A DNA stretch of 64,000 nt from Alphaproteobacteria bacterium (GCA_027045875.1 JALUAG010000049.1:1-64000), one strand, 5' to 3'. Positions 8,222 through 47,122 are shown, counted from the first letter of the stretch. Notes: generated by a model from the letters alone, not told the origin. A program made the numbers and translations.

Positions 8222-8294
8222 GCCCGCTCGGCGAGGGCCGGCCAGGGTGCCACGGAACCGACGTCCCGGGGAAGGCGGAGGCCGGCGGAGATGG

Positions 8295-8324
8295 CACGGC
8301 CGGCCGGGATACACGCCGGCCGTG
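8295..8324. terminator. Perfect 10-bp hairpin between convergent kinase and icd genes
   Basis: CACGGCCGGC at 8295-8304 pairs exactly with GCCGGCCGTG at 8315-8324 across a 10-base loop. It lies in the convergent gap between the sensor kinase and icd and has no U-tract on either side. A transcription-ending or 3'-end-stabilising role for one or both genes is inferred from position. Confidence 0.4.
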
Positions 8325-8386
8325 GGTTCCGGGTCTCCGATCCGCCCTTCCTCCGCCCGTACGCGCGCCGGCGCCCGGACGGACCC

Positions 8387-9604
8387 TCAGATGCCCAGCC
8401 GGCGCGCGAGTTCGCCGGCGATCGCCTCCATGAACTGGGTGGTGGTGAGCCAGGGCTGATCGGGGCCGATCAGCAGGGCCAGATCCTTGGTCATCCGGCC
8501 GCCCTCGACGGTATCGACGCACACCTGCTCCAGGGTGCGGGCGAACGCCTCCACCTCCGGCGTGCCGTCGATCCGGCCGCGGTAGGTGAGGCCGCGGGTC
8601 CAGGCGAAGATGGAGGCGATGGGGTTGGTGGAGGTCTCCTTGCCCTGCTGCCACAGCCGATAGTGGCGGGTGACCGTGCCGTGGGCCGCCTCCGCCTCCA
8701 CGGTCCGACCGTCGGGGGTCATCAGGACCGAGGTCATGAGCCCGAGGGAGCCGAAGCCCTGGGCCACGGCGTCCGACTGCACGTCGCCGTCGTAGTTCTT
8801 GCAGGCCCAGACGAAGCCGCCTTCCCATTTGAGCGCGGCCGCCACCATGTCGTCGATCAGCCGGTGCTCGTAGGTGAGACCCTTCTCCTCGAAGCGGGCC
8901 CGGAACTCGCGGTCGTAGACCTCCTGGAAGATGTCCTTGAAGCGCCCGTCGTAGACCTTGAGGATGGTGTTCTTGGTGGACAGGTAAACGGGATAGCCGC
9001 GCTCCAGCCCGTAGTTCATGCAGGCCCGGGCGAAATCGCGGATCTTCTCGTCCTCGTTGAACATGCCCATGGCGATGCCGGGGCCGGGATAGTCGTGGAT
9101 CTCCCAGCTCGTGGGCTCGCCGCCATCCTCGGGGGTGAAGGTCAGGGTGAGCCGGCCGCGGCCGGGGATCGCCACGTCGGTGGCCTTGTACTGGTCGCCG
9201 AAGGCGTGACGGCCGATGACGATGGGCTTTTCCCAGGTGCGCACGAGACGCGGCACGTTGCGGCAGATGATCGGCTCGCGGAACACCGTGCCGCCCAGGA
9301 TGTTGCGGATGGTGCCGTTGGGCGAGCGCCACATCTTCTTGAGGCCGAACTCCTCGACCCGCGCCTCGTCGGGAGTGATGGTGGCGCATTTGACGCCGAC
9401 GTTGTGACGCTTGATGGCCTCGGCCGCCTCCACCGTCACCCGGTCGTCGGTGGCGTCGCGGTTCTGGATGGAGAGATCGAAGTAGACGATCTCGAGATCG
9501 AGGAACGGCCGGATGAGCTGCTCCTTGATCATGTGCCAGATGATGCGGGCCATCTCGTCGCCGTCGAGCTCGACGATCGGGTTCGCGACCTTGATCTTTG
9601 CCAT
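8387..9604 (-). CDS. icd: NADP-dependent isocitrate dehydrogenase (homodimeric, eukaryote-like type)
   Basis: This TCA-cycle enzyme oxidatively decarboxylates isocitrate to 2-oxoglutarate and produces NADPH. The 405-aa product starts [18 protein letters not shown]. It carries the substrate motif [18 protein letters not shown] and the nucleotide-binding stretch [14 protein letters not shown]. The sequence matches the subfamily found in mitochondria and most alphaproteobacteria, not the E. coli Icd type. ATG 9604 has GGAG a few bases upstream. The reading frame extends further 5' without family similarity. It is a single gene with its own promoter region, since dnaQ ends 56 bases upstream. Confidence 0.97.
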
Positions 9605-9659
9605 CCTGCGATCTCCGGAGAAAGGGGTGGGGGCGCACCGTCCCTGGCTTGCGCGGCTT

Positions 9660-10379
9660 CTAGCGGCCCTCGTCCGCCTTGGCAAAGGGATCCACCGTCG
9701 CAGTCTCCTGCAGCCACAACGGATTCTCGAGGGTGGCGAGGAAGGCCTCGTGGGCGGCGAGTTCCTCGGCCGTCGGTGCGTGGGGCCGCGGCTCTCGGCG
9801 CACCCGGGCGGTCGTACGGTCGCCTCGCGCTTCGCCTCGCGCCGTCTCGAGACCGAGTGCCGCCTGCCTACCGCCGATCAGATGCAGATACACCTCCGCC
9901 AGGAGCTCGCTGTCGAGCAGCGCACCGTGGAGCTGCCGGTTGCTCGCGTCGATCCCGAAGCGGCGGCAGAGGGCGTCGAGGCTGTTGGACTGGCCGGGAA
10001 ACTTGCGCTGGGCGAGGAGCAGGGTGTCGATCGCGCGGGCCGGTGGCAGCGGCTCGCGCCCGCAGCGCTCCAGCTCGGCATTGAGAAAGCGGAGATCGAA
10101 GCTCGCGTTGTGGATGACGAGCGGGCTGTCGCCGATGAACGCGAGGAATTCCTCGACGATCTCGACGAAGCGCGGATGGTCGGCAAGAAAGCGGCTCGTC
10201 AGGCCGTGCACCCGCTCCGCCTCCGCCGGCACCTCCCGTTCGGGGTTGACGTAGCGGTGGAAGCTCTGGCCGCTGGGCAGATGATTGATCAGCTCCACCG
10301 CGCCGATCTCGACGATGCGGTGGCCGTCCGCGGGATCGAGGCCGGTGGTCTCGGTGTCGAGGACGATTTCACGCAGCAT
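9660..10379 (-). CDS. dnaQ: DNA polymerase III epsilon subunit (proofreading exonuclease)
   Basis: This 3'-5' exonuclease subunit edits replication errors within the polymerase III core. The 239-aa protein shows Exo I (LDTETTGLD), Exo II ([11 protein letters not shown]) and Exo III ([14 protein letters not shown]), the DEDDh set. It begins [15 protein letters not shown] and has a C-terminal tail of about 60 residues that would carry the alpha-subunit contact. Its start overlaps the end of coaE by 11 bases. The maf–coaE–dnaQ order is typical of alphaproteobacteria. Confidence 0.95.
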
Positions 10380-11028
10380 GCGGGCGACCTTCCTCCCTCG
10401 CGTTCAGGAACCAGCGCTGCGGCCAGACGCCGGCCGGGATCCGCCGCATCTCGAGCACGATGCGCCGGATGATGGCGAGCGTCGTGCCCTTGCCCTGGCC
10501 GGTGGGGATCACGTAGTCGGCGCGCCGGCGCTTTTCCGCCTCCGGCATCTGCGCGGCGCGAACGGCCGCCAGCCTTTCGCCGGTCATGCCGGGGCGGCGC
10601 AGGGCGCGCTGCTCCTGTAACAGCGGATGGCAGGTGACCACCGCCACCCGGTCGGTGCGGCGATCGCCGCCCGTTTCCAGGAGCAGCGGGATGTCCAGCA
10701 CCGCGAGCCGCACGCCCGCCCGGGCGCAGCGTTCGAGAAAGCGCCGCTCGCAGTCCCGCACGAGCGGATGGAGGATCGCTTCCAGCCGCCGCAGCGCCGT
10801 CCGGTCGGCGAACACCCGCCGGCCGAGGGCGGTGCGGTCGATGCCGCCACGGCCGTCGGCCGCCTCCGGGAAGAGCCCGGTCACCGCCGTCACCGCTGCG
10901 CCCCCGGGCCCGAGCAGCCGGTGCACCGCGGCATCGGCGTCGAACACGGGGACGCCGAAGGCATCGAACACCGAGGCGGCGAAGCTCTTGCCCATGGCGA
11001 TCGAGCCGGTGAGACCGAGGATCCGCAT
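10369..11028 (-). CDS. coaE: Dephospho-CoA kinase
   Basis: It catalyses the last step of coenzyme A synthesis, phosphorylating the 3'-OH of dephospho-CoA with ATP. The 219-aa protein starts MRILGLTGSIAMGKS, with the P-loop GSIAMGKS. VPVFDADAAVHRLL and LDIPLLLETG are CoaE signatures. ATG 11028 is chosen because the in-frame extension upstream reads into maf. It begins four bases after the maf stop and overlaps dnaQ by 11 bases, so the three genes are one transcript. Confidence 0.95.
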   Translation of the reverse strand: MRILGLTGSIAMGKSFAASVFDAFGVPVFDADAAVHRLLGPGGAAVTAVTGLFPEAADGRGGIDRTALGRRVFADRTALRRLEAILHPLVRDCERRFLERCARAGVRLAVLDIPLLLETGGDRRTDRVAVVTCHPLLQEQRALRRPGMTGERLAAVRAAQMPEAEKRRRADYVIPTGQGKGTTLAIIRRIVLEMRRIPAGVWPQRWFLNAREEGRPHAA

Positions 11029-11032
11029 CGTC

Positions 11033-11662
11033 TCACTCTTCCAGTACGCCTTCGCGGCGCAATGCGTCGAGCAGCGGCAGCAGCGGCAGACCGAGCACCG
11101 AGAAGAAGTCGCCCTCGATCCGCGCGAACAGCTGGGCACCCCGACCCTCGAGCTCGTAGGCGCCCACCGAGCGGAGAATATCCGGTCCGCAGCGCTCGAG
11201 ATAGTGGGCCAGGAAACGGTCGGAGAAGGCGCGCATCTCGAGCTCCACCGTCTCCACGTGCCGCCAGCGGAGCCGTTCCCTTCCCAGCAGCACGGCGGCG
11301 GTGACGAGCCGGTGTGGGCGTCCTCTCAGCCGGGCGAGGAGCTCTGCCGCCGCCGTCATATCGGCGCATTTCCCGATCCATTCCCCCTCGAATTCCAGGA
11401 TCTGGTCGGCGCCCAGCACCAGCGCGTCCGCGTCGACACGGTCCGTCACGGCGAGCGCCTTGCGTCGTGCCAGCTCGAACGCCGCGCGCGCCGTGGCCGC
11501 CCCGGCGGCCCGCAGCTCCTCGCGCAGGTGGGCTTCCGGCGCGCCGGCGGGGATCGCCCGGAAGGGAACGCCGGCGGCGGTGAGCAGACGCGCCCGTGCG
11601 GCACTGGCGGAAGCCAGAACGAGCCGGGTGGTGCCTCGGGCCTGGGCGGGGTTCGGGTGCAT
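11033..11662 (-). CDS. maf: Maf-family nucleotide pyrophosphatase, YceF-like
   Basis: Maf proteins hydrolyse non-canonical or modified nucleoside triphosphates. The 209-aa sequence has the N-terminal LVLASASAARARLL loop, an LVLGADQILEFEG segment and AQLFARIEGDFFSVLGLPLLPLL. The ADQ (rather than ADT) motif and the C-terminal pattern fit the YceF (7-methyl-GTP) branch better than the YhdE dTTP/UTP branch; the substrate is inferred. It is the first gene of maf–coaE–dnaQ. In many alphaproteobacteria aroE lies between maf and coaE; here it is absent and only four bases separate them. Confidence 0.9.
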   Translation of the reverse strand: MHPNPAQARGTTRLVLASASAARARLLTAAGVPFRAIPAGAPEAHLREELRAAGAATARAAFELARRKALAVTDRVDADALVLGADQILEFEGEWIGKCADMTAAAELLARLRGRPHRLVTAAVLLGRERLRWRHVETVELEMRAFSDRFLAHYLERCGPDILRSVGAYELEGRGAQLFARIEGDFFSVLGLPLLPLLDALRREGVLEE

Positions 11663-11815
11663 GGCTGCCGCTTACCATGATGTGCGCGCGCGGAAAACCG
11701 ACCGGCAGCGGCGACCACGCCGGACGGGAATGTCGCCCCCCGGACTTGACAAGCGCCCGACCCGTGTGACCATGCGGCCACAGCAAGATCGGCCAAGAGG
11801 AAGGAGGTACCCTCG

Positions 11816-12889
11816 ATGAAAGGAAGGCGGGCTCTCGCCCTCACCAGTGCCGTCGCTCTCGCCGCGGCGGCGGGGATCGCCTATGCCGCCGAGACCCTGA
11901 CCGTGGTGTCCTGGGGCGGCGCCTACACCAAGAGCCAGATCGAGGCCTATCACAAGCCGTTCACGGAGAAGACCGGCGTCGTCATCAATTCCGTCGACTA
12001 CAACGGCGGTCTCGCCGAGGTGCGGGCCCAGGTCGAATCCGGGAACGTCACCTGGGACGTGATCGACGTCGAGCTGTCGGACGCCATCCGTGGCTGTGAC
12101 GAAGGCCTGTTCGTCCCCATCGATCCCTCGATCCTGCCGCCCGCGCCCGATGGCACGCCGGCCGAGGAGGACTTCATCGAAGGCGGGATCCAGGAATGTG
12201 CGGTGGCCAACATCGTCTGGTCCACCGTCTACGCCTATCGTACCGATCTCGTCGGTGACAAGGCGCCCACCACCATCGCCGACTTCTTCGATCTCGAGAC
12301 CTGGCCCGGCAAGCGTGGCATGCGCCGCACGCCCAAGGTCAATCTCGAGTTCGCGCTGATGGCCGACGGCGTGCCGACGAGCGAGGTCTACAACGTGCTC
12401 GCCACCCCGGAGGGTGTGGACCGCGCCTTCGCCAAGCTGGACGAGATCAAGGACCAGGTGATCTGGTGGGAGGCGGGTGCCCAGCCGCCGCAGCTCCTGG
12501 CCGACGGCGAGGTGCTGATGAGCACCGCCTACAACGGACGGCTGTTCAACGCCATCTACAACGAGAAGCAGCCGCTCGAGATCGTCTGGGACGGCCAGGT
12601 CTACGACCTCGACCTGTTCGCCATTCTCAAGGGCGCGCCCAACGAGAAGCGGGCGCTCGAGTTCGTGGCCTTCGCCACCGACACCGAGCGGCTCGCCCGG
12701 CAGGCCGACTGGATCTCCTACGGTCCGGCCAGGAAGTCCTCCATGAAGTACGTGCAGCCGGACATTCTGCCCCACCTGCCGACGGCGCCCGAGAACTTCA
12801 AGAATCCGCTGCAGAACGATTTCGAGTTCTGGGCCGACAACCAGGACGAGCTCAACGAGCGCTTCAACACCTGGCTGGCCGTCAACTGA
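11816..12889 (+). CDS. Periplasmic solute-binding protein, spermidine/putrescine (PotD/F) type
   Basis: This is a substrate-capturing component of an ABC importer. The 357-aa precursor has a Sec signal peptide (residues 1 to about 24, cleavage near AYA|AETL). The mature part opens with LTVVSWGGAYTKSQIEAY, as in the PotD/PotF-like family. IIWxxGAQPPQLLADGEV-type and TAYNGRLF segments also fit that family. No permease or ATPase genes flank it, so it is an orphan binding protein. The ribosome site is strong (AAGGAGGT about 9 bases before ATG). A TTGACA box at 11746-11751 could be its -35, with a poor -10. A U-tract terminator follows directly, so it is transcribed alone. Confidence 0.9.
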   Translation: MKGRRALALTSAVALAAAAGIAYAAETLTVVSWGGAYTKSQIEAYHKPFTEKTGVVINSVDYNGGLAEVRAQVESGNVTWDVIDVELSDAIRGCDEGLFVPIDPSILPPAPDGTPAEEDFIEGGIQECAVANIVWSTVYAYRTDLVGDKAPTTIADFFDLETWPGKRGMRRTPKVNLEFALMADGVPTSEVYNVLATPEGVDRAFAKLDEIKDQVIWWEAGAQPPQLLADGEVLMSTAYNGRLFNAIYNEKQPLEIVWDGQVYDLDLFAILKGAPNEKRALEFVAFATDTERLARQADWISYGPARKSSMKYVQPDILPHLPTAPENFKNPLQNDFEFWADNQDELNERFNTWLAVN

Positions 12890-36877: not shown

Positions 36878-37885
36878 TCAGCGCCCGGACGGCAGGCGGC
36901 GTGGCCGCTCCCGCCACATCGTTTCGGCGAGATGCTGGGCCTCCGCCATGGAACGGCCGGGATCGAGCAGCCGCAGCGCCAGAGCGACGGTACCGGTGAC
37001 CGCCGCCACCGGTCCCGCTGGCTCCCACTCGCCCTCCCACAGCGCCCGCAGTCGCCGACAGTCCAGCTCCTCCCGCCGCCAGGGATGGGGCTCGCCGGCG
37101 GTCAGAGGCGGCCAGACTTCCTCGCGGCCTTCGGCGCCCTCGACCATCAGACAGCGGCAGGGCTTCTCGGGATTGCGCTGGGCTTCGCCCCCGCCGCCCT
37201 TGAAGGTGACGGCGCGCGGCTGCCCCAGCCGGAGCTGGGTATCGCGGTGGAGCGTCAGATAGGTCGGATGGAAGATGCCCTGGATCTGGGCGGGAGCGTG
37301 GAACGGGTTGAGCTCGCGGGCCAGCGTGTGCACCGCGGTCCGGAGACCGAGCAGCGGCCGCAGGGCGAACAGCGCCTCGAGCTCCGGCAGCAGGACGGCG
37401 AGGGGCAGATAGGCGAAGCCCGTCCGGTCCAGTTGGCGGCGGGCGTCCGCCACCGAGCGGGCGGCATCGATTCCGAGGGCGGCCAGCCCGGCCGGCGTGG
37501 TGGCCGGTCCCTCGCCGGATATCCCGTGCATCAGCACCCGCACGCCGCTGCCCGCGAGGAGCCGCGCCGCCAGCAGGAAATAGGGCAGCTGCCGATGGCG
37601 GTCCGCGTAGGACGGCCAGTCGAGATCCACCGCGAGCTCCGAAGCGCCGGCGATGCGGGCGCGGGCCGCGCGCACGAAGCCCGCGAGCTCGGCGGCGGTC
37701 TCGGTCCGGTAGCGGAGAACGAGCAGGAAGGCGCCCAGCTGCAGCGGCTCGACCGCGCCTTCGAGGATCGCCTCCATCGCCCTTTGCGCTTCCTCTTCCT
37801 CGAGCGGGCGGGAAAGGGTCGGACCGCGCCCGACGGTGCGCAGAAAGGCGGCGAACGGATGGGGTTCGGCGGGATGTCCGTTCAC
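36878..37885 (-). CDS. TrpD2/YbiB-like glycosyltransferase-family protein
   Basis: The 335-aa protein has the anthranilate phosphoribosyltransferase fold: FAAFLRTVGRGPTLSRPLEEEEA, a helical domain with EAILEGAVEPLQLGAFLLVLR, and MHGISGEGPATTPAG. It also has HPTYLTLHRDTQLRLG and TFKGGGGEAQRNPEKPC, the YbiB (TrpD2) features. YbiB binds nucleic acid and lacks TrpD activity, so the name should not be read as a tryptophan enzyme. The GTG start overlaps the nnrS stop (GTGA), making it the last gene of the minus-strand NO cluster. Confidence 0.8.
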   Translation of the reverse strand: MNGHPAEPHPFAAFLRTVGRGPTLSRPLEEEEAQRAMEAILEGAVEPLQLGAFLLVLRYRTETAAELAGFVRAARARIAGASELAVDLDWPSYADRHRQLPYFLLAARLLAGSGVRVLMHGISGEGPATTPAGLAALGIDAARSVADARRQLDRTGFAYLPLAVLLPELEALFALRPLLGLRTAVHTLARELNPFHAPAQIQGIFHPTYLTLHRDTQLRLGQPRAVTFKGGGGEAQRNPEKPCRCLMVEGAEGREEVWPPLTAGEPHPWRREELDCRRLRALWEGEWEPAGPVAAVTGTVALALRLLDPGRSMAEAQHLAETMWRERPRRLPSGR

Positions 37886-39033
37886 GTTCGATGGCCCGGC
37901 TGTCGTCTGCTGCCGGTCCCGAGCATAGGCCGCCGCAAGGAGAGGAGAAAGGCCACCAGCAGGAGGAAGGCCAAGGCCCAGAGGGCTGCCGAAAGCGTCA
38001 GGAGAAGAGGCGCGCGTTCGGGAAACAGGGGGAGGGCGAGGCGGGCGAGGGCGGCGAGGCTCAGAAGTGGCGCCCAGCGGGCGACGGACGCCGCGGCGGC
38101 GAACCCTTTCCCGGCGCGCTGGGCGGCGGTGCGTGCCATGACCGTGAAGGCGAGGGTGCCGAGACCGCCGATCATCACCGCATGGACCCCATCGACGGGT
38201 GTGAAGAGCGCACCGGAGAACGCGACGCCGAGCAGGATCAGGCCGGCGGCGAGCCAGCCGTAGCCGAGATGGAGGGCCCAGACTTCGGGCGAGCCCGTGA
38301 CGATCGGCGCGAACCAGCGGGCGAGCCGCCAGCCCGTGAGGACGCCGGCCGCCGACAGGGCGAGGCCGGCGATCGCGGGGGCGAGAGAGAGCAGGATCCC
38401 GACGATGGCGAGGAAGAACAGGCCCAGGGTGAGCATCTCGCGGGGAAGGTCGATGCCGGCGGCGAGGCGTCCGCCTCGCCGCTGGACGACTCCCGCGGTG
38501 GCGGCGCGGATGATCCGCCCTCCCATCAGGGTCAGCAGGGTGGAGAGCAGGAGCACGAGGCTCCAGACCGCGGTCGTGGCGAGCGCTCCCTCCGCCCGAC
38601 GCGCCGCCAGGGCGAACAGGACCTCGAGCAGCAGGAAGCCGACGGGGATGACCCCGAAGGCGAAGTTGCCGGCCTTCCTGGAGCTCCGGAAGAAGGGCGG
38701 TGCCACCAGAAGGGCGAGCAGGGCGGGAAAGGGCAGCAGGAGAAGGGGGGCGAGCGCCGCGGGCATCCAGAAGGCGGTGCGCGCGAGCAGCCACAGCGCC
38801 GCCAGCAGCAGTATCTGCACGGCTGTCGCGCGGGTGACGAGAAAGCCCGCCATCACCGCCCCGGCGAAGCCGAGCAGCATTTCATGGGCATGCCAGGCGG
38901 TGAGCGCGGGCCAGCCGGGTGCCGGCAGCCGACCATCGTAGACCGCCAGCCACCACGGCGCGGCGAGCGCCGCCCAGAGACCGGCGAGCGGAAAGAACAG
39001 CTCGTGGGCGAGGAGGCGACGATTCCGCTTCAA
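37882..39033 (-). CDS. nnrS: NnrS-family haem/copper membrane protein (second copy)
   Basis: This 383-aa membrane protein has about 12 helices. NnrS proteins are tied to NO metabolism and resistance to NO stress and are regulated by NNR/NsrR in denitrifiers. Family motifs are WHAHEMLLGFAGAVMAGFLVT near the start, LTLMGGRIIRAAT, VWALHLGYGWLAAGLILLG and GLGTLAFTVMARTA. The TTG start (39033-39031) overlaps the bacteriohemerythrin stop as TTGA, so the two are coupled. A second NnrS lies at the other end of the cluster, at about 46 kb. Confidence 0.88.
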   Translation of the reverse strand: MKRNRRLLAHELFFPLAGLWAALAAPWWLAVYDGRLPAPGWPALTAWHAHEMLLGFAGAVMAGFLVTRATAVQILLLAALWLLARTAFWMPAALAPLLLLPFPALLALLVAPPFFRSSRKAGNFAFGVIPVGFLLLEVLFALAARRAEGALATTAVWSLVLLLSTLLTLMGGRIIRAATAGVVQRRGGRLAAGIDLPREMLTLGLFFLAIVGILLSLAPAIAGLALSAAGVLTGWRLARWFAPIVTGSPEVWALHLGYGWLAAGLILLGVAFSGALFTPVDGVHAVMIGGLGTLAFTVMARTAAQRAGKGFAAAASVARWAPLLSLAALARLALPLFPERAPLLLTLSAALWALAFLLLVAFLLSLRRPMLGTGSRRQPGHRT

Positions 39034-39428
39034 ACGCCGAGTTTCTTGTGCAATCGGGCGTCCTTGGTCTTGAAGTGGTTCACGAACCAGTCGCGCACGC
39101 GACTCGCCAGACGATCCTCGAAGTCCTCGTAAACGCCGGCCTCGTAGTCGTCCATGATGTCGCGGATGTCGTCGAGAAGCCGTTCGTGTTCCGCCTTGTG
39201 GGCTTCGTATTCGTCGTAGCCGTGTTTGCGCATGATCGTCTCCTCGAGCGCGAAATGCGCCGAGATGCGGGCGAAGACCTCGCCGAGGAAGGCGGAGACG
39301 GTCTCGCGATCGGCCCGCTCGCCGATCTTGTCGTGCAGGGAGTTGATGAGATCCACGAGCTCCCGGTGCTCGTGATCGACATCGGGTATGCCGGTCTCGA
39401 ACTCCTCGCGCCACTCGATCAGGGCCAT
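39030..39428 (-). CDS. Bacteriohemerythrin
   Basis: This soluble four-helix di-iron protein binds O2, and related proteins bind NO. The 132-aa sequence keeps all seven ligands: H21, H58, E62, H77, H81, H118 and D123, in the H-HxxxE-HxxxH-HxxxxD pattern. It is coupled to nnrS by a stop/start overlap and lies 40 bases from the membrane-anchored orphan. In this context an NO- or O2-delivery/scavenging role for the cluster is a reasonable inference. Confidence 0.93.
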   Translation of the reverse strand: MALIEWREEFETGIPDVDHEHRELVDLINSLHDKIGERADRETVSAFLGEVFARISAHFALEETIMRKHGYDEYEAHKAEHERLLDDIRDIMDDYEAGVYEDFEDRLASRVRDWFVNHFKTKDARLHKKLGV

Positions 39429-39468: not shown

Positions 39469-39975
39469 CTAAAGATAGAAGATGAACCCGCCCTTGTCGG
39501 CCTTGAAATCGATCGGCAGGTTCTGGCGGGGGCGAAGATCGACCACCAGCTCGCTCTCGTAGGCGAAACGATCGGTGCGGCCGCGGTCTTCGAGGCGGAC
39601 GAGGAGGCGGTGGCGGCCGGTCGGTACCAGGAACTTCTCGTAGGCGTGGGCCGGGCTGTCGCCGGCGAGGCCGCCGGGCTCGAGGACCTGGTCGAAGATC
39701 ACCGTCTCGTCGAGGACGAGCTGGACGCGGATCGGCAGCCGCCGGCGGGAGCAGGTGTTGGGGCGCCGCTGGCCGGGCGGCAGCCGCGCGATCTCCTCGG
39801 CGGAGAGACGACGGCAGGCCTCGACACGTGCGCCGCCGTGGGAGAAGCTCAGCAGGATCTGCGCCTTGTCCGGCGGGATGTGCTCGTAGATCGGCCGCTG
39901 CGAGAAGTAGCCGATACCCAGCACGACGACCGCGTAGAAGACGGCCTGCCCGACGTAGCGCAAGAGATCAGTCAT
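39469..39975 (-). CDS. Membrane-anchored periplasmic protein of the NO cluster, unknown
   Basis: The 168-aa protein begins MTDLLRYVGQAVFYAVVVLG, a single transmembrane helix. A soluble beta-rich domain follows with two Cys near residues 54 and 73, a long stretch starting IRVQLVLDETVIFDQVLEP, and the end FKADKGGFIFYL. I do not recognise a family. Its start overlaps the cytochrome b fusion gene by eight bases, which argues for a shared complex. It occupies the place of 'orf1' in norSY–senC–orf1-type clusters, but homology to that protein is not established here. Confidence 0.72.
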   Translation of the reverse strand: MTDLLRYVGQAVFYAVVVLGIGYFSQRPIYEHIPPDKAQILLSFSHGGARVEACRRLSAEEIARLPPGQRRPNTCSRRRLPIRVQLVLDETVIFDQVLEPGGLAGDSPAHAYEKFLVPTGRHRLLVRLEDRGRTDRFAYESELVVDLRPRQNLPIDFKADKGGFIFYL

Positions 39976-41542
39976 CGCCGGCCTCCGCCAGTTCCCGGCG
40001 GCGTCGGGCCCGCTCTTCGGCAAGGGAGGGCAGGCGCGAAAGTTCGGCCGCGAACGTCTCCAAGAGCGCCTCCAGCCGATGGCGTCCGAGCGGTCCCGCC
40101 CACAGGGTGCGCAGCCGCTCACGCGGCACCCGCTGGCGCAGGTAGGGATCCCGTTCGCCCGCGATCCGCTGCTCGGTCCAGCTGATGCCGAAGCGGTTGT
40201 GGCAGTCGTTCTCGGCGCAGCCGGTGAGCACCACCCCTTCGGCGAGATCGCGGCTCAGCACGTAGTCGATGAAGGAGGGCGGCAAATGGCCGCTGCAGGC
40301 GAGCTGCACGACCCCCACCCCGGGACTGTCGAGCCCCGAAAGCGGCACACCGTTGCCGCATCCGAAGACGATGATGCGCGGACGTTCGGTCAGCCGCGCC
40401 GAGGCGGCGTGCAGGCGCTCCCGGATCGCGGCGAGGGGCAGATCGGGGAGATCGATCCCGGGATGCAGGGGGGTCGCCCGTCGGAACGGGGTGGCGGTCG
40501 GACAGGCGCCGGCACAGATGCCGCAGGCGACACAGAGGGATGCGTTGACCTGGGCTTCCCGCTCGAACGGCCGCCCGTCGCTTCGGGCCACCATGGTGAT
40601 GGCGCTGTAGGGACAGTCGGCGAAGCAGCGGGCGCAGCCGTTGCAGTTGACGAGATCGACGCGGGCCGGGCTGGCCCGCCGCATGGGCGGCAGCCAGGGA
40701 ATGGCCAGGAACATCACCAGGAGCGCGATGGAGCTGCCCCAGGTGACCGGCCCCGGCAGGGTCTCGAACAGCGGATAGAGCGGCAGGTAGAACCAGTCGA
40801 GGCCGATGTCCGCCGGCACTTCCAGAAGATCGGCCGGTCCCTGGCTGGTGGCCGGCCAGACGAGGGACAGGACGAGAAGGGAGAGGAGGGTGCCGACGGC
40901 GAGCCCGCGGGGCGGGTTGATGCGCGGCTTGGTGATGCGCTGCAGATGCACCCAGAGGATCAGGAGGGCAATGAGCGGCACCGCGATGTGCATGAACACC
41001 ATCAGGGTGAAGAAGCGGTCGCTCAGATGCTCGGGCGAAAGGAAGTTGCGGGCGATCGGCTGGCCGAAGATGCCCGCCTTGTCCAGCCATTCGCTGGTGA
41101 CGATGGCGACGTACTGGGCCAGCTTGTCCCACACCAGCCAGTAGCCGGTGATGCCGGCGACATAGACCAGTACCAGCACCGGCACGCCGGTGAGCCAGCT
41201 GAAGCTCCGCGCCCCCCGGTAGCGGTCGTTGGCGAATTCGCGCAGGAGATGCAACAGCATGACGACGACCAGCCCGTCCGAGGCGTAGCGGTGCAGGCTG
41301 CGCATCAGCCCGGCGTGGAACCACTGTTCGTTGGTCATGGTTTCCACCGAGCCGAAGGCCTGGGCGGCGCCGGTGTCGAAGAAGGCGTAGACGTAGATGC
41401 CGCTGACGGTGACGACCCAGTAGAAGAAGAAGCCGAGCGCGCCCAGATTGAGGAGCGGGTTCCAGGCGTCCGGGAAGATCCGGCCGAGAGCGTTCTGGGC
41501 GGTCTCGAAGACGAGCCGCAGCGACCTGCGCAGTGCGTTCAT
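39968..41542 (-). CDS. Fusion: di-haem cytochrome b + 2x[4Fe-4S] ferredoxin + MvhD domain
   Basis: Residues 1-290 form a cytochrome b/b6-like membrane domain. H84/H98 and H185/H199 (both H-x13-H) would bind two b haems, and LDWFYLPLYP near 248 recalls the quinol-site PEWY loop. Residues 300-347 hold two 4Fe-4S sites (C300, C303, C306, C310; C337, C340, C343, C347). Residues 388-490 resemble MvhD, the electron-transfer subunit of F420-non-reducing hydrogenase, with C395, C416, C442 and C447 (TGCAENDCH). The 524-aa protein could move electrons between quinol, iron-sulfur clusters and a soluble partner. No hydrogenase or Hdr genes are nearby. Domain calls are strong; the reaction is unknown. Confidence 0.88.
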   Translation of the reverse strand: MNALRRSLRLVFETAQNALGRIFPDAWNPLLNLGALGFFFYWVVTVSGIYVYAFFDTGAAQAFGSVETMTNEQWFHAGLMRSLHRYASDGLVVVMLLHLLREFANDRYRGARSFSWLTGVPVLVLVYVAGITGYWLVWDKLAQYVAIVTSEWLDKAGIFGQPIARNFLSPEHLSDRFFTLMVFMHIAVPLIALLILWVHLQRITKPRINPPRGLAVGTLLSLLVLSLVWPATSQGPADLLEVPADIGLDWFYLPLYPLFETLPGPVTWGSSIALLVMFLAIPWLPPMRRASPARVDLVNCNGCARCFADCPYSAITMVARSDGRPFEREAQVNASLCVACGICAGACPTATPFRRATPLHPGIDLPDLPLAAIRERLHAASARLTERPRIIVFGCGNGVPLSGLDSPGVGVVQLACSGHLPPSFIDYVLSRDLAEGVVLTGCAENDCHNRFGISWTEQRIAGERDPYLRQRVPRERLRTLWAGPLGRHRLEALLETFAAELSRLPSLAEERARRRRELAEAGDD

Positions 41543-41552
41543 GTGCGTCGTC

Positions 41553-42356
41553 TCAGCGCAACGATGAAGGCCCGGTTCGTGCCGGCGAGCGGCGCCATTC
41601 GCGCACGATCACCAGAAGGACGAGGAAAAGAGCACCGCTGCCGATGGCGATGCGGATGAAGAGGGCGTAGTTGAAATAGTAGCGTCCGCTGTCGGGGTCG
41701 TAAATCGTGCAGAACAGGCGGATGCGATCCAGCACGTCCTCGATCCCGGACATCGGCCGGTAACGGCCGTAGACGAGATCCTTGAGGGGTTCGACGATCT
41801 GCGGCGGATCGAAGTCGGCGCCGTAGATCTGGCGGTAGATGCGCCCTTCGGCGTCGACGACGGTGACCTGGGCGAGATGACCGAAGCCGCCGGCGAGGGG
41901 ATAAATCGTGAAGCCCACCGCCTCGGTCAGCGCGTCGATGGTCTTCTGTTCGGCGCTCAGGAACAGCCAGCCGGGAAGATCGACGCCCTGGCTGCGGGCG
42001 AAGGACCGCATGCGCTCGGGCGTGTCACGGGCGGCGTCGAAGCCGATCGTCACCACCCGGAAGCTGTCCGGGCCGAACATCTCCTGGGCGTTCTCGATGA
42101 TGGGATAGATGTTCTGGATGAGGGTCGGGCAGATGTCGGCGCAGGCCGTGTAGACGAGGCTCACCAGCAGCGGCCGGCCGCGCAGCTCGCCCAGCCGTAC
42201 GACGCGGCCCTCGGTGTCGCGGAAGGGGAGATCGGGCAGCGTATCACCGAGCACCGCCCGGCTCCTGGCCAGCGTTTCCTCAGCGTCCGGTGTGGTCGCG
42301 GCCTGCGCCGACAGCGCGAGGACCAGCAGACCGGCCGCCAGCCACGGCGCGCGCAT
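41553..42356 (-). CDS. Sco1/SenC copper chaperone with extra C-terminal membrane helix
   Basis: SenC/Sco proteins deliver copper to the CuA or CuB site of haem-copper oxidases. The 267-aa protein has a signal sequence (residues 1-18), the thioredoxin fold with CADIC (CxxxC) near residue 92, and the copper-binding His in GGFGHLAQVT. Unusually it ends with a second hydrophobic helix (about residues 235-257) and a basic tail, so it is anchored at its C-terminus. Its ATG overlaps the haem O synthase stop (ATGA). It is the expected partner of the adjacent oxidase-like subunits. Confidence 0.92.
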   Translation of the reverse strand: MRAPWLAAGLLVLALSAQAATTPDAEETLARSRAVLGDTLPDLPFRDTEGRVVRLGELRGRPLLVSLVYTACADICPTLIQNIYPIIENAQEMFGPDSFRVVTIGFDAARDTPERMRSFARSQGVDLPGWLFLSAEQKTIDALTEAVGFTIYPLAGGFGHLAQVTVVDAEGRIYRQIYGADFDPPQIVEPLKDLVYGRYRPMSGIEDVLDRIRLFCTIYDPDSGRYYFNYALFIRIAIGSGALFLVLLVIVREWRRSPARTGPSSLR

Positions 42357-43234
42357 CAGCCGGTTCCCGACAGCCAGCGATCGGCGATGGCCCCGAGCAG
42401 GAGGAGCAGCAACTGGCCCAGGGACGCGAAGAAATTGCGCATCGCCTGTCGCCGGGTGGGCCGCATCACCAGCCACCAGCTCTCGAGGGTGAACCAGATG
42501 CCACCGGCGAGGGTGGCGAACAGATAGATCCGGCCCATGCCGGCGAGGGCCGGCAACAGGGCGAGGATGCTCAGTGCCAGGGTATGGGCGAACACCACCT
42601 TGGCGCAGAGCCGGTTGCCGACCACCACCGGCAGCATGGGGACGCCCGCTTCGGCGTAGTCCTCGCGGAGCGCCATCGACAGACTCCAGAAATGGGGCGG
42701 TGTCCAGAGGAACAGCACGATGGCGAGGAGCAGGGGCGCGGCGCCGATCGCGGGATCGACGGCTGCCGCCCCGGCGAGGACCGCGAAGCTGCCGGAGAGG
42801 CCGCCGACGACGATGTTGAGCCAGGTCCGGCGTTTGAGCCAGACGGTATAGACCACGCCGTAGGTGACGGCGCCGAGGAAGACGTAGAGCGCCGCCCAGC
42901 CGTTGGCGACCCCGGCGGCGAGCAGCACCGCGGCGGCCAACAGCGCGAGGATGGTCACCAGCCAGCCGGCACCCGCCCGCAAGCGACCGGCCACGAAGGG
43001 GCGGTTGCGGGTGCGCGGCATGCGGGCATCGAGATCCCGCTCCACGAGCTGGTTGAAGGCGCCGGCGCTGGCCGACGCCAGGAAGACGGCGAGGGCGAGC
43101 GCGGCGATGGCGGTGCCGTCGGGAAGCGCCCCCTCGGTCACGGCCAGCCCGCCGAGGGCGCTCAGGGTGATGGCGAAGCCGATCCTGAGCTTGAAGACCG
43201 AGACCAGATCCCGAACCGTCGCTGCCATCGCCAT
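42356..43234 (-). CDS. ctaB: Protohaem IX farnesyltransferase (haem O synthase)
   Basis: This UbiA-superfamily membrane enzyme farnesylates haem b to haem o. The 292-aa protein has the prenyl-PP site NQLVERDLDARMPRTRNRP and YTVWLKRRTWLNIVVGGLSG, with WTPPHFWSL in the later loop. ATG 43234 is chosen; an in-frame GTG at 43285 would overlap subunit I by 16 bases. Its place between subunit I and Sco1 implies that the enzyme carries haem o or a at one site. No haem A synthase (ctaA) is in the window. Confidence 0.92.
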   Translation of the reverse strand: MAMAATVRDLVSVFKLRIGFAITLSALGGLAVTEGALPDGTAIAALALAVFLASASAGAFNQLVERDLDARMPRTRNRPFVAGRLRAGAGWLVTILALLAAAVLLAAGVANGWAALYVFLGAVTYGVVYTVWLKRRTWLNIVVGGLSGSFAVLAGAAAVDPAIGAAPLLLAIVLFLWTPPHFWSLSMALREDYAEAGVPMLPVVVGNRLCAKVVFAHTLALSILALLPALAGMGRIYLFATLAGGIWFTLESWWLVMRPTRRQAMRNFFASLGQLLLLLLGAIADRWLSGTG

Positions 43235-43269
43235 GGCTCGCTCGCCCCTGCCGGTGTCCGACCCGTCGA

Positions 43270-45018
43270 TCAGCTCATCGGCCACAGCTCGGACAGGTAC
43301 TTCCAGTTCACGAAGTAGTAGAGCACGAAGGAGACGAAGAACACGCCCACGATCACGTAGGTGCCGGGCAGATGATGGGCCTCGGCGCTGCCGTGCTTGG
43401 CGACGTTCGCCGAGGACCCGCTCTGCAGCACGCGCGCCGGCATCGGTCCGAGCGATTCGAGGGCGTTTGAGGCATCGACCTTCTTGCCCCAGAGCACCGT
43501 CCCGACGGTGATCAGGATGTAGAGGATACCGCCGATCGAGGCGAGAATGGCGAAGATGCCGTTGAGCCCCATCATCAGGAAGGCGGCGGGCGGATAGTCG
43601 AAGCTCAGGAGCGCGTCACTGAAGGTGATGTCCCAGTGCCGGCGCGACACGCCCAGGGTCCCGGCACCCATCATGAACAGCGAGATGCCGCCGGCGCCGA
43701 TGCCGAACAGGTAGGGCTGCCATTTGGCGAGCTTCGGCCAGATCACCTGGCGCTGGAAGATGAGGGGCAGCACGAGATAGGTGAGGGCCATGAAGGCCAG
43801 GGTCGTGCCGGCCACCACCGTACCGTGGAAATGCCCGGGCACGTAGAGGGTGTTGTGCATCATGATGTTGAGCTGCTCGGAGCCCAGCACCACGCCCGAA
43901 ATGCCGCCCAGGAAGCCGAACAGGACGAGGGAAAGGAACATGCCGGCGAAGGCCGGATTGTCCCAGGGCGCCTTCCTGAGCCACTCGAACATGCCGTTGA
44001 CATATCCGTTCTTGCGCTGGGCCGCCTCGATCGCGCCCGGCACCGTCATGCCGTGGATGAGGGAGCCGAGCACCGCCAGATAGAGGGCATAGCTGGTGTT
44101 GAACACCTTCCATTCGGCGCTGAGACCGGGCTCCACCAGCAGATGGTGGGCGGAGGCCAGCTGGAGGAACAGGATATAGAGGAAGAAGGCGGTCCGGCTG
44201 ACCTTCTCCGACAGCGGCTTGGCACCCAGCAGCAGGCCGATGATCGCGTACCAGATGGCGACCTGGGCCGAGACGTTGATCTGCTGGGAGCTGTGGCCCA
44301 TGCCCCACCAGACGAGCTTGTACATCAGGGTGTCGATGTTGGCGATGTAGCCCAGGGACCACAGCCAGGTGGGGATGAGGATGATGGCACCGGAGGCGAT
44401 GGTGAAGACGGCGATGATCGCGGCGGTGATGGCGCCGAAGGTGACGAGCGGGACCGAGCCTTCGTAGGTCCGCTCCTCACGGGCGATCACCAGCGTGCCG
44501 AAGAATACCCCGCAGCCGATCAGCGCACCCACGGCGAACAGAATGAGCCCGAGATAGAAGTTGGGCGAGGCCTGCATCGGCACGTAGGAGGTGAACATGA
44601 CGCTCGAATCGCCCTGCAGCACCGCCCAGTTCGTCAGCAGCGAGCCGACGATCATCAGCACGAAGGCCATCCAGGCGAGCCAGGGAGTGGCGAGACGGCA
44701 GTTGAGCAGGATCGCCGATGCGAAGTAGAGGACCGCGATTTCGAAGAAGATGATCCAGAACAGCAGCACGTTGATGCCGTGTGCGGTCAGGACCAGGTAG
44801 AAAGTGTCGGCGTCCAGGAGATGGATGGCGGGCCAGCGCGTCAGCGCCACCAGTAGACCGAGGAGTCCGCCGATGGCCAGATAGACGACGGCCACCACGG
44901 CGTTGGCTTTGATCAGTCGTTCGGCGGCCAGATCGACCTTCAGCCCGGTCGCCGGGCAGCTCCGGAACTTGGCGGCGATGCCGCCGATCACACCGAGTTC
45001 GCCTGCTGCAGTCGCCAT
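43270..45018 (-). CDS. Haem-copper oxidoreductase subunit I, NorY/sNOR-like, active-site Tyr replaced by Gln
   Basis: The 582-aa membrane protein has about 14 helices and is related to B-family (ba3) oxidases. All metal ligands are present: H80 (LTAHGINVLLFW) and H398 for low-spin haem, H396 (YVPGHFHG) for high-spin haem, and H242, H291 and H292 for CuB. After H242, oxidases have HPxxY with a cross-linked Tyr; here it is GHSSQQINVSAQ, with Q246 at the Tyr position and no Pro. Loss of this Tyr is typical of nitric oxide reductases. I therefore read it as a NO reductase-like enzyme of the NorSY–SenC class, not a cytochrome c oxidase. Subunit II starts upstream with a three-base gap. Confidence 0.85.
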   Translation of the reverse strand: MATAAGELGVIGGIAAKFRSCPATGLKVDLAAERLIKANAVVAVVYLAIGGLLGLLVALTRWPAIHLLDADTFYLVLTAHGINVLLFWIIFFEIAVLYFASAILLNCRLATPWLAWMAFVLMIVGSLLTNWAVLQGDSSVMFTSYVPMQASPNFYLGLILFAVGALIGCGVFFGTLVIAREERTYEGSVPLVTFGAITAAIIAVFTIASGAIILIPTWLWSLGYIANIDTLMYKLVWWGMGHSSQQINVSAQVAIWYAIIGLLLGAKPLSEKVSRTAFFLYILFLQLASAHHLLVEPGLSAEWKVFNTSYALYLAVLGSLIHGMTVPGAIEAAQRKNGYVNGMFEWLRKAPWDNPAFAGMFLSLVLFGFLGGISGVVLGSEQLNIMMHNTLYVPGHFHGTVVAGTTLAFMALTYLVLPLIFQRQVIWPKLAKWQPYLFGIGAGGISLFMMGAGTLGVSRRHWDITFSDALLSFDYPPAAFLMMGLNGIFAILASIGGILYILITVGTVLWGKKVDASNALESLGPMPARVLQSGSSANVAKHGSAEAHHLPGTYVIVGVFFVSFVLYYFVNWKYLSELWPMS

Positions 45019-45021
45019 GGC

Positions 45022-45576
45022 TTACCCTCCCTGCCCGGGCTCGACGACCCGGATGCGGCCGGTCATGGTGTGATGGCCGAGGCCGCAGTACTCGTTGCAG
45101 ACCACGGTGAAGACCCCCGTTTCCTGGGGGGTGATGGTGATGATGTGTTCGAGACCGGGGTGTACCTGGAGGTTGATGTTCACCGGCTGCAGGGAGAAAC
45201 CGTGCTGCCAGTCGACGGATGAGATGTGCAGACGGTAGCTCTGCCCCTTCTCGAGCTGCAGGACAGGCCACCACTCCCACAGCCGGGCAACCATGTAGAC
45301 GTCGCTGCCGGGCGGTGGCGCCACGATGGGAATGCCCGTATCCCCCTCTTCACCGATCTTGTACTTCTCGGTGGTTTCTTCGGCCCGCTGAGCGAATACT
45401 TCCGGATCGATGCGGTAGACTTCGGTCGACAGGTTCTGCTTCCCCTCCAGATGCCAGTAGATCATCATGCCGAACATGAACAGGCCCCAGAGGAAGGCGA
45501 TCACGATCCACAGGAGCTCGCCGCGGGCTATGGGTTCGTTCCACCAGACCCGTACCTCGGGAGGACGTAACGCCAT
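45022..45576 (-). CDS. CuA-bearing subunit II of the haem-copper complex (NorS-like)
   Basis: The 184-aa protein has one N-terminal transmembrane helix (about residues 20-42) and a periplasmic cupredoxin domain. The complete CuA site is present: H125 (VDWQHGFSL), C160, E162, C164, H168 and M171 in CNEYCGLGHHTM. It therefore takes electrons from a soluble or membrane c-type cytochrome, unlike the cytochrome c subunit NorC of classical NO reductase. It is translated between the 55-aa peptide (12-base gap) and subunit I. Confidence 0.92.
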   Translation of the reverse strand: MALRPPEVRVWWNEPIARGELLWIVIAFLWGLFMFGMMIYWHLEGKQNLSTEVYRIDPEVFAQRAEETTEKYKIGEEGDTGIPIVAPPPGSDVYMVARLWEWWPVLQLEKGQSYRLHISSVDWQHGFSLQPVNINLQVHPGLEHIITITPQETGVFTVVCNEYCGLGHHTMTGRIRVVEPGQGG

Positions 45577-45826: not shown

Positions 45827-47038
45827 TCAAGAATTGACCGTCGTCAAGCGGGGGCGCAGTAGCATCGGTCCGAAACGCACGGCGAACACGGCGTAGGCGC
45901 CGCTCCAGAAGAGTGCCGGCAATCCCAGCGCGAAGACGGCGTTTTCGGCCCACAGCGGTGCCAGGAGACGGAGGACGGCGCCGGCGGTCACCAGCAGATA
46001 GATCGAGGTGGTCACGCGATCGGCAACCAAGGGGCGGCCCGTGTGACCGAGGGTGGCGCGGGTCATCACGGCCAGCGTCATGGTGCCGAAGGCGCCGGTC
46101 GTGAAGGCATGGAAGGCGGTCGAGGACGGCAGGCCGAAACCCAGCAACGCGGCTCCGTAGAGAATGCCGCCGATGCCCAGCCACGCATAGCCGAGATGCA
46201 GAACGGCGACGAGCGGTTCCGGCAGGGTGACGCCGCCCCGCCAGCGCGAGAGCCGCAGGAGATGCGCCACGCCCGAAACGAGGAACGGCACCGCGGCGGC
46301 GGTGGGCGAGACCAGCCAGAGAAGAAGTGTCGCCGCCCACAGCAGAAGCGTCAACTTGTCCCAGGCGTCCCATTCCGCCGGGAGCCGCCGATCACCGCGT
46401 CGTACGAGCCAGTTGCGGGTGAAGGCGGGGGTGATCCGGCCGCCGATGAGGGCCAGCAGCATCATCACCACGGCGAGACCGAGGTGCCGGCCGAAGCCGC
46501 CTGTGGGCCCGCCGAGGAAGGGATCGAGACGCGAAAGGAGACTGCCCAGGGCGAACAGGCTCACCAGCACCGCCACCGGGATGTTGCGGCGATTGTCACC
46601 GGCCAGGATCTCCCGCCAGGTGAGGAAGGCGAGGGCGCCGAAGAACGCGGCATCGGCGAGCAGGGCGAGGAATGCCGCGGCGGCCCCCGGAAGGAGGCCG
46701 AACAGACGGCCGGCGAGCCACGGCAGGAGAAGCGCCAGCAGGGCCGTGCCCCGCACGGGTGGCCGGCCGGTCCAGTTGGGGATGGCGGTGAGCAGGAAAC
46801 CCGCCACGATGGCCCCGATGCCGCCGAACAGGGCGGCATGCTGGTGCCAGGCGAGGGCGCCGGTGGCGGGCACCCAGGCCAGGCGATGCCCCAGGAACGC
46901 GAGCCAGATCAGGAGGCTCGCCGGAAGCCAGACGGCACCGGCGAGGAAGAACGGGCGAAAGCCGATCTGCAGCACCGGTCGGTCCGCGATGCGAAGGCGT
47001 CGGTGGTGCTGGGCGGAGATCGAAGACGTGGTGCTCAC
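45827..47038 (-). CDS. nnrS: NnrS-family haem/copper membrane protein (first copy)
   Basis: This 403-aa, roughly 12-helix protein has NnrS hallmarks: VLQIGFRPFFLAGAVW near the N-terminus, WHQHAALFGGIGAIVAGFLL, ALIGGRITPAFTRNWL, VLHLGYAWLGIGGILYG and HAFTTGAFGTMTLAVMTRA. GTG 47038 with GAGGA about ten bases upstream is chosen. A TTG at 47122 lies inside the Fnr-type box and is unlikely to be the start. The last codons of this gene carry a second Fnr-type box for the next operon. NnrS proteins act in NO stress; the exact reaction is unknown. Confidence 0.9.
   Translation of the reverse strand: MSTTSSISAQHHRRLRIADRPVLQIGFRPFFLAGAVWLPASLLIWLAFLGHRLAWVPATGALAWHQHAALFGGIGAIVAGFLLTAIPNWTGRPPVRGTALLALLLPWLAGRLFGLLPGAAAAFLALLADAAFFGALAFLTWREILAGDNRRNIPVAVLVSLFALGSLLSRLDPFLGGPTGGFGRHLGLAVVMMLLALIGGRITPAFTRNWLVRRGDRRLPAEWDAWDKLTLLLWAATLLLWLVSPTAAAVPFLVSGVAHLLRLSRWRGGVTLPEPLVAVLHLGYAWLGIGGILYGAALLGFGLPSSTAFHAFTTGAFGTMTLAVMTRATLGHTGRPLVADRVTTSIYLLVTAGAVLRLLAPLWAENAVFALGLPALFWSGAYAVFAVRFGPMLLRPRLTTVNS
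45834..45847. promoter_or_regulatory. Fnr/Dnr-type box before the oxidase operon
   Basis: TTGACCGTCGTCAA (minus strand TTGACGACGGTCAA) has perfect TTGAC and GTCAA half-sites with a 4-base spacer. Its centre is about 84 bases upstream of the 55-aa gene and it lies in the final codons of nnrS. The form is typical of Crp/Fnr-superfamily regulators such as Dnr/NNR. Confidence 0.7.
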
Positions 47039-47108
47039 GGCTCGGTCCTCTTCGCTGGCCCGGAATACGGCGACGACCCGGTTATCGCGAAGCCGTATCC
47101 GTACAGAT

Positions 47109-47122
47109 TTGACGATCGTCAA
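47109..47122. promoter_or_regulatory. Fnr/Dnr-type box before nnrS
   Basis: TTGACGATCGTCAA is a perfect 14-base palindrome with the same TTGAC-N4-GTCAA form. Its centre is about 78 bases upstream of the nnrS GTG start. It also lies upstream of the divergent FAD oxidoreductase remnant. Confidence 0.7.

Follow-up and report, generated by a model that had tools for sequence, protein, structure and literature searches.

A cytochrome b-ferredoxin-MvhD fusion protein encoded beside an eNOR-type nitric oxide reductase in proteobacteria

Introduction

The eNOR enzymes are a recently recognised family of NO reductases and a potential source of N2O in soil, groundwater and the sea. Two established electron-transfer systems offer points of reference for the protein described here. 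In the Hdr complexes, MvhD is a component of an electron-bifurcating machine; in NarGHI, quinol is oxidised on the p-side of the membrane and the Fe-S module lies on the n-side.

The described systems closest to the present locus each share some of its features. The Nrc NADH dehydrogenase of Thermus, which is dedicated to nitrate respiration, sets a precedent for an NADH entry module within a denitrification cluster that is built from a membrane subunit and Fe-S proteins; it differs from the locus studied here in that its components are separate proteins with a separate flavoenzyme, no MvhD is reported, and the module is linked to nitrate reductase and not to a NO reductase (PMC7694296). A Chloroflexi ORF, RME88945.1, is listed as combining a PRK03735 cytochrome b6, a 4Fe-4S domain (DMSOR_beta-like) and FlpD in a study of denitrification (PMC8756737, Table A3); the likeness is one of listed domains, and this ORF additionally has a 'C1' domain, the type of cytochrome c that is found fused to NirS (PMC8756737). 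The reductase family itself is described as related to the B family of haem-copper enzymes and as biochemically characterised (PMC11388526, citing Murali et al. 2024). Its active-site residue is tabulated as Gln, the published eNOR signature (PMC8756737, Table A4), and that of sNOR is given as Asn (PMC8756737). Within the open-access literature that we searched, a scope that excludes the PNAS 2024 eNOR paper, we found no description of MvhD/FlpD, cytochrome b and a NO reductase together.

Results

Domain organization of the fusion protein

The fusion gene lies at positions 39968..41542 on the minus strand of the window, by which we mean the whole 64,000-nucleotide stretch of alphaproteobacterial DNA that was analysed. 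It starts with an ATG at 41542, stops at 39968 and encodes a protein of 524 residues; proteins of this kind are annotated in databases as no more than 'cytochrome b N-terminal domain-containing protein'. The three domains for which the initial annotation of this DNA had suggested a search were all recovered by Pfam, as Cytochrome_B (residues 25-203, 1e-18), Fer4_7 (residues 299-350, 1e-8) and FlpD/MvhD (residues 407-504, 6e-10; 39.6 bits against a cut-off of 22.3). The plus-strand frame over these positions is also free of stop codons, but it is a shadow frame in DNA of high GC content, resembles no family and was rejected as a gene. A chance or mis-framed ORF is ruled out by ligand conservation over 81 sequences together with the significant family scores, and an assembly chimera by the recurrence of the fusion architecture in 80 separate loci from many genomes.

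The cytochrome b domain (residues 25-290; 40673..41470, minus strand, as are all features of the fusion) comprises helices A-D together with E and F, as delimited by Pfam, AlphaFold2/Foldseek and alignment with bc1. Four His residues, placed by homology as ligands of haem bL (H84, 41291..41293; H185, 40988..40990) and haem bH (H98, 41249..41251; H199, 40946..40948), are invariant in 81 of 81 aligned sequences, as are D249 and W250 of the DWFY sequence (residues 249-252; 40787..40798) that aligns with the Qo-site PEWY of bc1. The ferredoxin domain (residues 293-350; 40493..40666) contains two CxxCxxCxxxC motifs, whose eight Cys (300/303/306/310 and 337/340/343/347) are also invariant. The MvhD/FlpD domain (residues 388-506; 40025..40381) matches the PDB MvhD chains 5odc_D and 9sw2_D, and its four Cys (395/416/442/447) all fall on MvhD Cys of 5odc_D in the alignment; three of them are invariant, and the last, C447, is present in 78 of the 81 sequences and missing in three. 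The anatomy first proposed for this chain, with two H-x13-H pairs, a DWFY loop, two 4Fe-4S sites and a four-Cys MvhD domain, is therefore present with its ligands conserved; loss of ligands in most members was looked for in the 81 sequences and was not found.

Residues 292-506 match positions 571-773 of 777 of HdrA2 (NCBIfam), corresponding to its C-terminal part. The order of ferredoxin followed by MvhD and the four aligned Cys are the same as in the MvhD/FlpD of Mvh-Hdr and in the C-terminal part of HdrA2; unlike these, the fusion lacks the HdrA flavin domain, and its tail sits on a membrane cytochrome b.

The membrane half of the fusion

An AlphaFold2 model of the fusion, built from 44 sequences, has a mean pLDDT of 80 and is weaker at about residues 130-190 and 240-260; its closest PDB folds in Foldseek are bc1 cytochrome b, over approximately 290 columns. 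Compared with the cytochrome b of bc1 and b6f complexes, the fusion keeps the haem His at bc1 spacing (x13 in helix D), all four of the Gly that are conserved in helices A and C (a second comparison cytochrome b lacks at least one of them), and helices E and F, where L-D-W-F aligns with P-E-W-Y of the host's own bc1 cytochrome b such that the acidic residue and the Trp are kept and Pro and Glu are not. It differs in ending past helix F, without helices G and H, in lacking the Qi-site His that follows H199 in the bc1 alignment, and in bearing the added Fe-S/MvhD tail. Rieske and cytochrome c1/f partners are absent from the conserved gene order of the 80 fusion loci. The earlier description of this half as b6-like holds only in part: the best PDB sequence matches are b6 proteins, whereas in its x13 spacing of the helix D His and its helix E/PEWY/F region the domain looks like a truncated cytochrome b of the bc1 type, which is how we read it from its sequence. 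The best NCBIfam match to this half is a partial one to ExtP, a b-type cytochrome of selenite/tellurite operons, at 102.8 bits and so far under the 290-bit cut-off of that model, which covers 205 positions and has no tail.

In the bc1 complex the polypeptide that follows helix F emerges on the cytoplasmic side. A manual count on the fusion sequence gives about 15 Lys and Arg in the loops on the side of the tail and four on the opposite side. The bc1 helix order and this concentration of positive charge would place the Fe-S tail in the cytoplasm. By homology, the tail would adjoin haem bH and the D-W motif would occupy the periplasmic Qo position.

The eNOR operon

Seven genes follow one another, nearly contiguously, on the minus strand of the window: subunit II, subunit I, CtaB, Sco, the fusion, a 168-residue protein and a bacteriohemerythrin. 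Subunit II (45022..45576) is an eNOR-type COX2 protein with a CuA site whose residues are invariant. Subunit I (43270..45018) is the catalytic, B-family haem-copper protein, and is followed by the haem O synthase CtaB/CyoE (42356..43285; TIGR01473, 253 bits against a cut-off of 210) and by a SCO1/SenC copper chaperone recognised by Pfam and synteny (41553..42356, with its start taken as the ATG at 42356). Beyond the fusion lie the 168-residue partner protein (39472..39975) and the bacteriohemerythrin (39030..39428; NF033749, 113 bits against 84). The cluster is flanked in the window by two genes for NnrS, a NO-related haem-copper membrane protein, one upstream (45827..47122, minus strand; Pfam NnrS, 1e-101) and one diverged copy downstream (37882..38997, minus strand, start inferred; 1e-55). 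The reductase subunits, CtaB, Sco and NnrS bear out the haem-copper/NO gene setting that had been claimed for the fusion. A long ORF at 36878-38794 (minus strand), with a C-terminal part of the TrpD/YbiB-like glycosyl transferase family (PRK09071, 346 bits), is syntenic in loci L005, L006 and L011 and is apparently unrelated to this cluster.

The PDB matches of subunit I are ba3-type proteins, and in alignment with the ba3 oxidase of T. thermophilus its Gln246 falls at the position of the cross-linked Tyr; the conserved residues are H242, Q245, Q246, N248, H291, H292, H396 and H398. On the position of this Gln and the family relationship, and with a CuA subunit II encoded upstream, we assign the neighbouring reductase to the eNOR type. 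An O2 reductase is not favoured, as Tyr is absent at the A/B-family position; our own inspection of the helix VII spacing found no Tyr at the cbb3-type position either. The sNOR of ammonia oxidisers (norSY-senC-orf1) has senC in common with this operon, but its residue is Asn where eNOR has Gln.

The nearest plasmid-borne relatives of subunit I outside Proteobacteria are those of Thermomicrobium and of the denitrification region of T. thermophilus NAR1, which have 46% identity to the protein of the window and the same Gln. The fusion was not found within about 10 kb of these eNOR-like loci, and eNOR catalysis itself therefore does not require it. On the NAR1 plasmid, the CuA protein and Gln-type subunit I (L087:9444-11668) stand beside nitrite reductase genes; the published genome analysis of this strain reports no nitric oxide reductase genes (PMC7694296), and the pair is possibly an overlooked eNOR.

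Several eNOR-fusion clusters also encode a second COX1-like protein with the motif GGHVLQF (L105:6124-7482, minus strand; also in L022, L038, L044, L068, L081, L082, L101-L103 and L142-L144). It keeps the haem His and one CuB His and has lost the helix VII CuB His pair, of which at most one His is left, in one member; judged by these residues, it is apparently a copper-less haem-copper relative. In the f39 genomes (L101-L104; 1.2-1.9 Mb) two tandem copies of the cytochrome b-ferredoxin-MvhD protein adjoin the copper-less COX1-like protein, together with a CtaA-like protein where the contig reaches that far.

Linkage and co-occurrence with denitrification genes

A scan of one genome per species returned 115 relatives of the fusion, and the loci of 80 were fetched. 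Hyphomicrobium sp. CS1BSMeth3, Chelativorans multitrophicus DSM 9103 and Roseovarius amoyensis are among the culturable bacteria with the cluster. Subunit I of eNOR lies upstream of the fusion in all 72 loci whose contigs are long enough; in the remaining eight, contig ends cut off the upstream region. The survey of taxa and neighbours proposed in the initial annotation thus returned a NO operon at every testable locus, and the fusion was not consistently tied to unrelated operons. Among 398 Pseudomonadota genomes, 30 carry eNOR subunit I and 34 carry the fusion, with 29 having both (Fisher p 8e-38, a value that is descriptive only, since the genomes are related). In the sole genome with eNOR and no fusion the contig stops just past Sco, and the five genomes with the fusion only are drafts, 69-96% complete.

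In seven genomes (loci L117, L119, L120, L123, L124, L127 and L129) the fusion and its partner are unlinked from eNOR, lying on a different contig or at a distance of more than 10 kb, and there the pair is found beside nirS or within about 6 kb of it, usually with genes for d1-haem biosynthesis. Genes of the nir group occur within 8 kb in at least 17 of the 80 fusion loci. Clustering of ORFs across the loci revealed no conserved gene for a soluble electron donor within 8 kb; the only genes that do recur over this distance are those of a Crp/Fnr-like regulator (23 loci) and of cytochromes c. The link between the fusion and denitrification is strong.

The 168-residue partner has an N-terminal transmembrane helix and a beta sandwich that is confidently predicted (pLDDT 96) and expected to be extracytoplasmic. 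Pfam places it in no known family, and there is no structural match below E 0.001; a redox site, looked for by family and by structure, was rejected on these grounds. Its gene adjoins the fusion in 78 of 78 testable loci among the 80 fetched. Where the fusion is found apart from eNOR, the partner gene is always with it, unlike those for the hemerythrin and CtaB/Sco. Two Cys of the partner, C54 and C75, probably form a disulphide, because both are missing together in the f39 copies.

The host genome

The genome from which the window comes carries the cd1 nitrite reductase NirS (495 bits) and a complete bc1 complex (Rieske, cytochrome b and c1, at C74). Three COX1-family proteins are present, which we read as the eNOR, an aa3-type protein with the HPEVY motif and a cbb3-type protein encoded next to CcoO; cNOR, qNOR and NirK were not found above cut-off in the host genome. 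On the basis of these searches, the eNOR is the only recognisable NO reductase of the host.

NiFe hydrogenase (PF00374) and FrhB/FdhB (PF04432) were found nowhere in this genome, and there is no FlpD domain in it besides that of the fusion. Coupling of the MvhD domain to a hydrogenase or to FrhB is ruled out for the host on this ground. CCG (HdrB-type) domains occur in three host genes, one of which (277 residues) is LutA-like by inspection, with the other two judged by ORF size. Coupling to Hdr is not favoured, though this holds less firmly than the exclusion of hydrogenase and FrhB. The original statement that hydrogenase and Hdr genes are lacking thus extends to the whole genome in the case of NiFe hydrogenase, and in the case of Hdr applies to the conserved fusion operon, which contains no Hdr gene.

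A second cytochrome b copy with a reductase tail

In four genera of one proteobacterial family, the operon has the normal fusion and an extra copy of the cytochrome b in which the ferredoxin-MvhD tail is replaced by a plant-type [2Fe-2S] ferredoxin with FAD- and NAD-binding reductase domains (L105:9637-11616, minus strand; L142 about 9628-11640, plus strand; L143 about 10104-12005, plus strand; L144 about 7592-9490, minus strand). The reductase tail was identified by Pfam in one of the four and recognised in the other three by identity over the tail. These paralogues have 54-56% identity to each other and about 41-49% to the cytochrome b of the window, keep all haem ligands and the D-W motif, and form a strongly supported clade; one of the genomes is a single contig. 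In the same four loci the MvhD-tailed copies tend to have long branches with every ligand kept, a pattern that may reflect relaxed or changed constraint.

Of the indirect clues that a pyridine nucleotide or a flavoprotein exchanges electrons with the cytoplasmic tail of the fusion, this replacement of the tail by an NAD(P)H reductase is the best. The electron path to a soluble partner, as first proposed, holds up, and the more specific suggestion of NAD(P)H or a flavoprotein as that partner gains indirect support from the reductase-tailed copies of this one family.

Discussion

From the computed architecture, conservation, operon structure, co-occurrence and tail swap we infer a scheme for how the cofactors are loaded, the order and direction in which electrons pass, the use of quinone and the nature of the donor. 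Its central proposal, which we judge about equally likely to prove right or wrong, is that the fusion is an accessory module that carries electrons across the membrane, taking them from a soluble donor in the cytoplasm and delivering them to the quinone/eNOR/NirS chain. The cytochrome b would hold two b haems in series across the membrane and form a quinone pocket of the Qo type that faces the periplasm; the ferredoxin and MvhD domains would lie in the cytoplasm beside haem bH. A flavoprotein that depends on NAD(P)H or ferredoxin is the likeliest donor. It would dock on MvhD, and electrons would then travel from the [2Fe-2S] cluster through the two [4Fe-4S] clusters to haem bH and haem bL, to exit on the periplasmic side either to quinone or directly to the nitrite/NO-reducing chain. 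The 168-residue partner probably organises the periplasmic face of the fusion. This cytoplasmic-donor model is weakened because the operon has no conserved donor gene and the genome lacks NiFe hydrogenase and FrhB/FdhB, with which MvhD classically works, and because the reduction of quinone at the periplasmic side by cytoplasmic electrons would cost proton-motive force.

The direction of electron flow cannot be read from sequence, and the main rival to the cytoplasmic-donor model runs the path in reverse. Quinol would be oxidised at the periplasmic Qo-like site and give one electron to cytochrome c, eNOR and NirS, which form the high-potential chain; the second would pass through haem bL, haem bH, the Fe-S clusters and MvhD to a cytoplasmic acceptor. 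Low-potential reductant or proton-motive force would be generated in this way, by bifurcation from quinol or by a redox loop like that of Nar. The invariant D-W of the Qo motif and the missing Qi His, as if a cytoplasmic Fe-S exit had replaced the Qi site, agree with this direction, as do the established role of MvhD in the bifurcating Hdr complexes and the precedent of NarGHI as a p-side quinol oxidase with an n-side Fe-S module. Against such a path, the conserved gene order contains no Rieske protein or cytochrome c1 (those of the host belong to its ordinary bc1), the cluster encodes no high-potential first acceptor, and the alternative tail belongs to a type of FAD/NAD(P)H reductase whose normal reaction is the oxidation of NAD(P)H. 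We regard the reverse direction as possible but rather doubtful.

The position of CtaB and Sco directly upstream of the fusion, together with the predicted extracytoplasmic domain of the partner, would also suit a supply of reductant for assembly or repair, in which cytoplasmic electrons would serve the maturation of eNOR and NirS by reducing the copper of Sco or CuA, thiols, or haem that has been damaged. The unlinked fusion nevertheless leaves CtaB and Sco behind and sits with nirS, whose product contains no copper, and the eNOR-like loci of Thermus and Thermomicrobium do without the fusion, which makes this role improbable. Least credible of all is a membrane sensor or detoxifier of redox state or NO, in which NO would bind to the hemerythrin or a haem b and a cytoplasmic protein would receive the signal from the Fe-S tail: the hemerythrin does adjoin the fusion/partner pair in most loci and the two NnrS genes flank the cluster in the window, but the fusion has no signalling domain and keeps every electron-transfer ligand, and several diverged clusters retain it with the hemerythrin missing.

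On the cytoplasmic-donor model or its reverse, a quinone- and b-haem-based machine, whose cytochrome b has acquired the ferredoxin-MvhD end of HdrA2, would link the respiration of NO and nitrite to a soluble cytoplasmic carrier of low potential, a suggestion that we put forward tentatively and at slightly less than an even chance. The coupling would take the form either of NO reduction driven by NAD(P)H or ferredoxin that bypasses bc1, or of a quinol bifurcation through which denitrification yields low-potential reductant; to our knowledge, neither is a known respiratory module. All domains of the fusion are known and the enzyme of the operon is of a known kind, and there is a real chance that the biochemistry is new.

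The near-exceptionless pairing of the fusion with eNOR in the sampled proteobacteria suggests a dedicated route from the cell interior to the nitrite/NO-reducing machinery, and proteobacterial eNOR is thus predicted to have a near-obligatory accessory electron subunit. The protein places MvhD, a hallmark of electron bifurcation in methanogens, in a respiratory membrane protein, and the natural swap between a ferredoxin-MvhD and a Fer2-FAD-NAD tail makes the question of the donor directly testable. Were electrons to enter from the cytoplasm, this branch of denitrification would differ in its yield and energetics from the usually assumed bc1-cytochrome c scheme.
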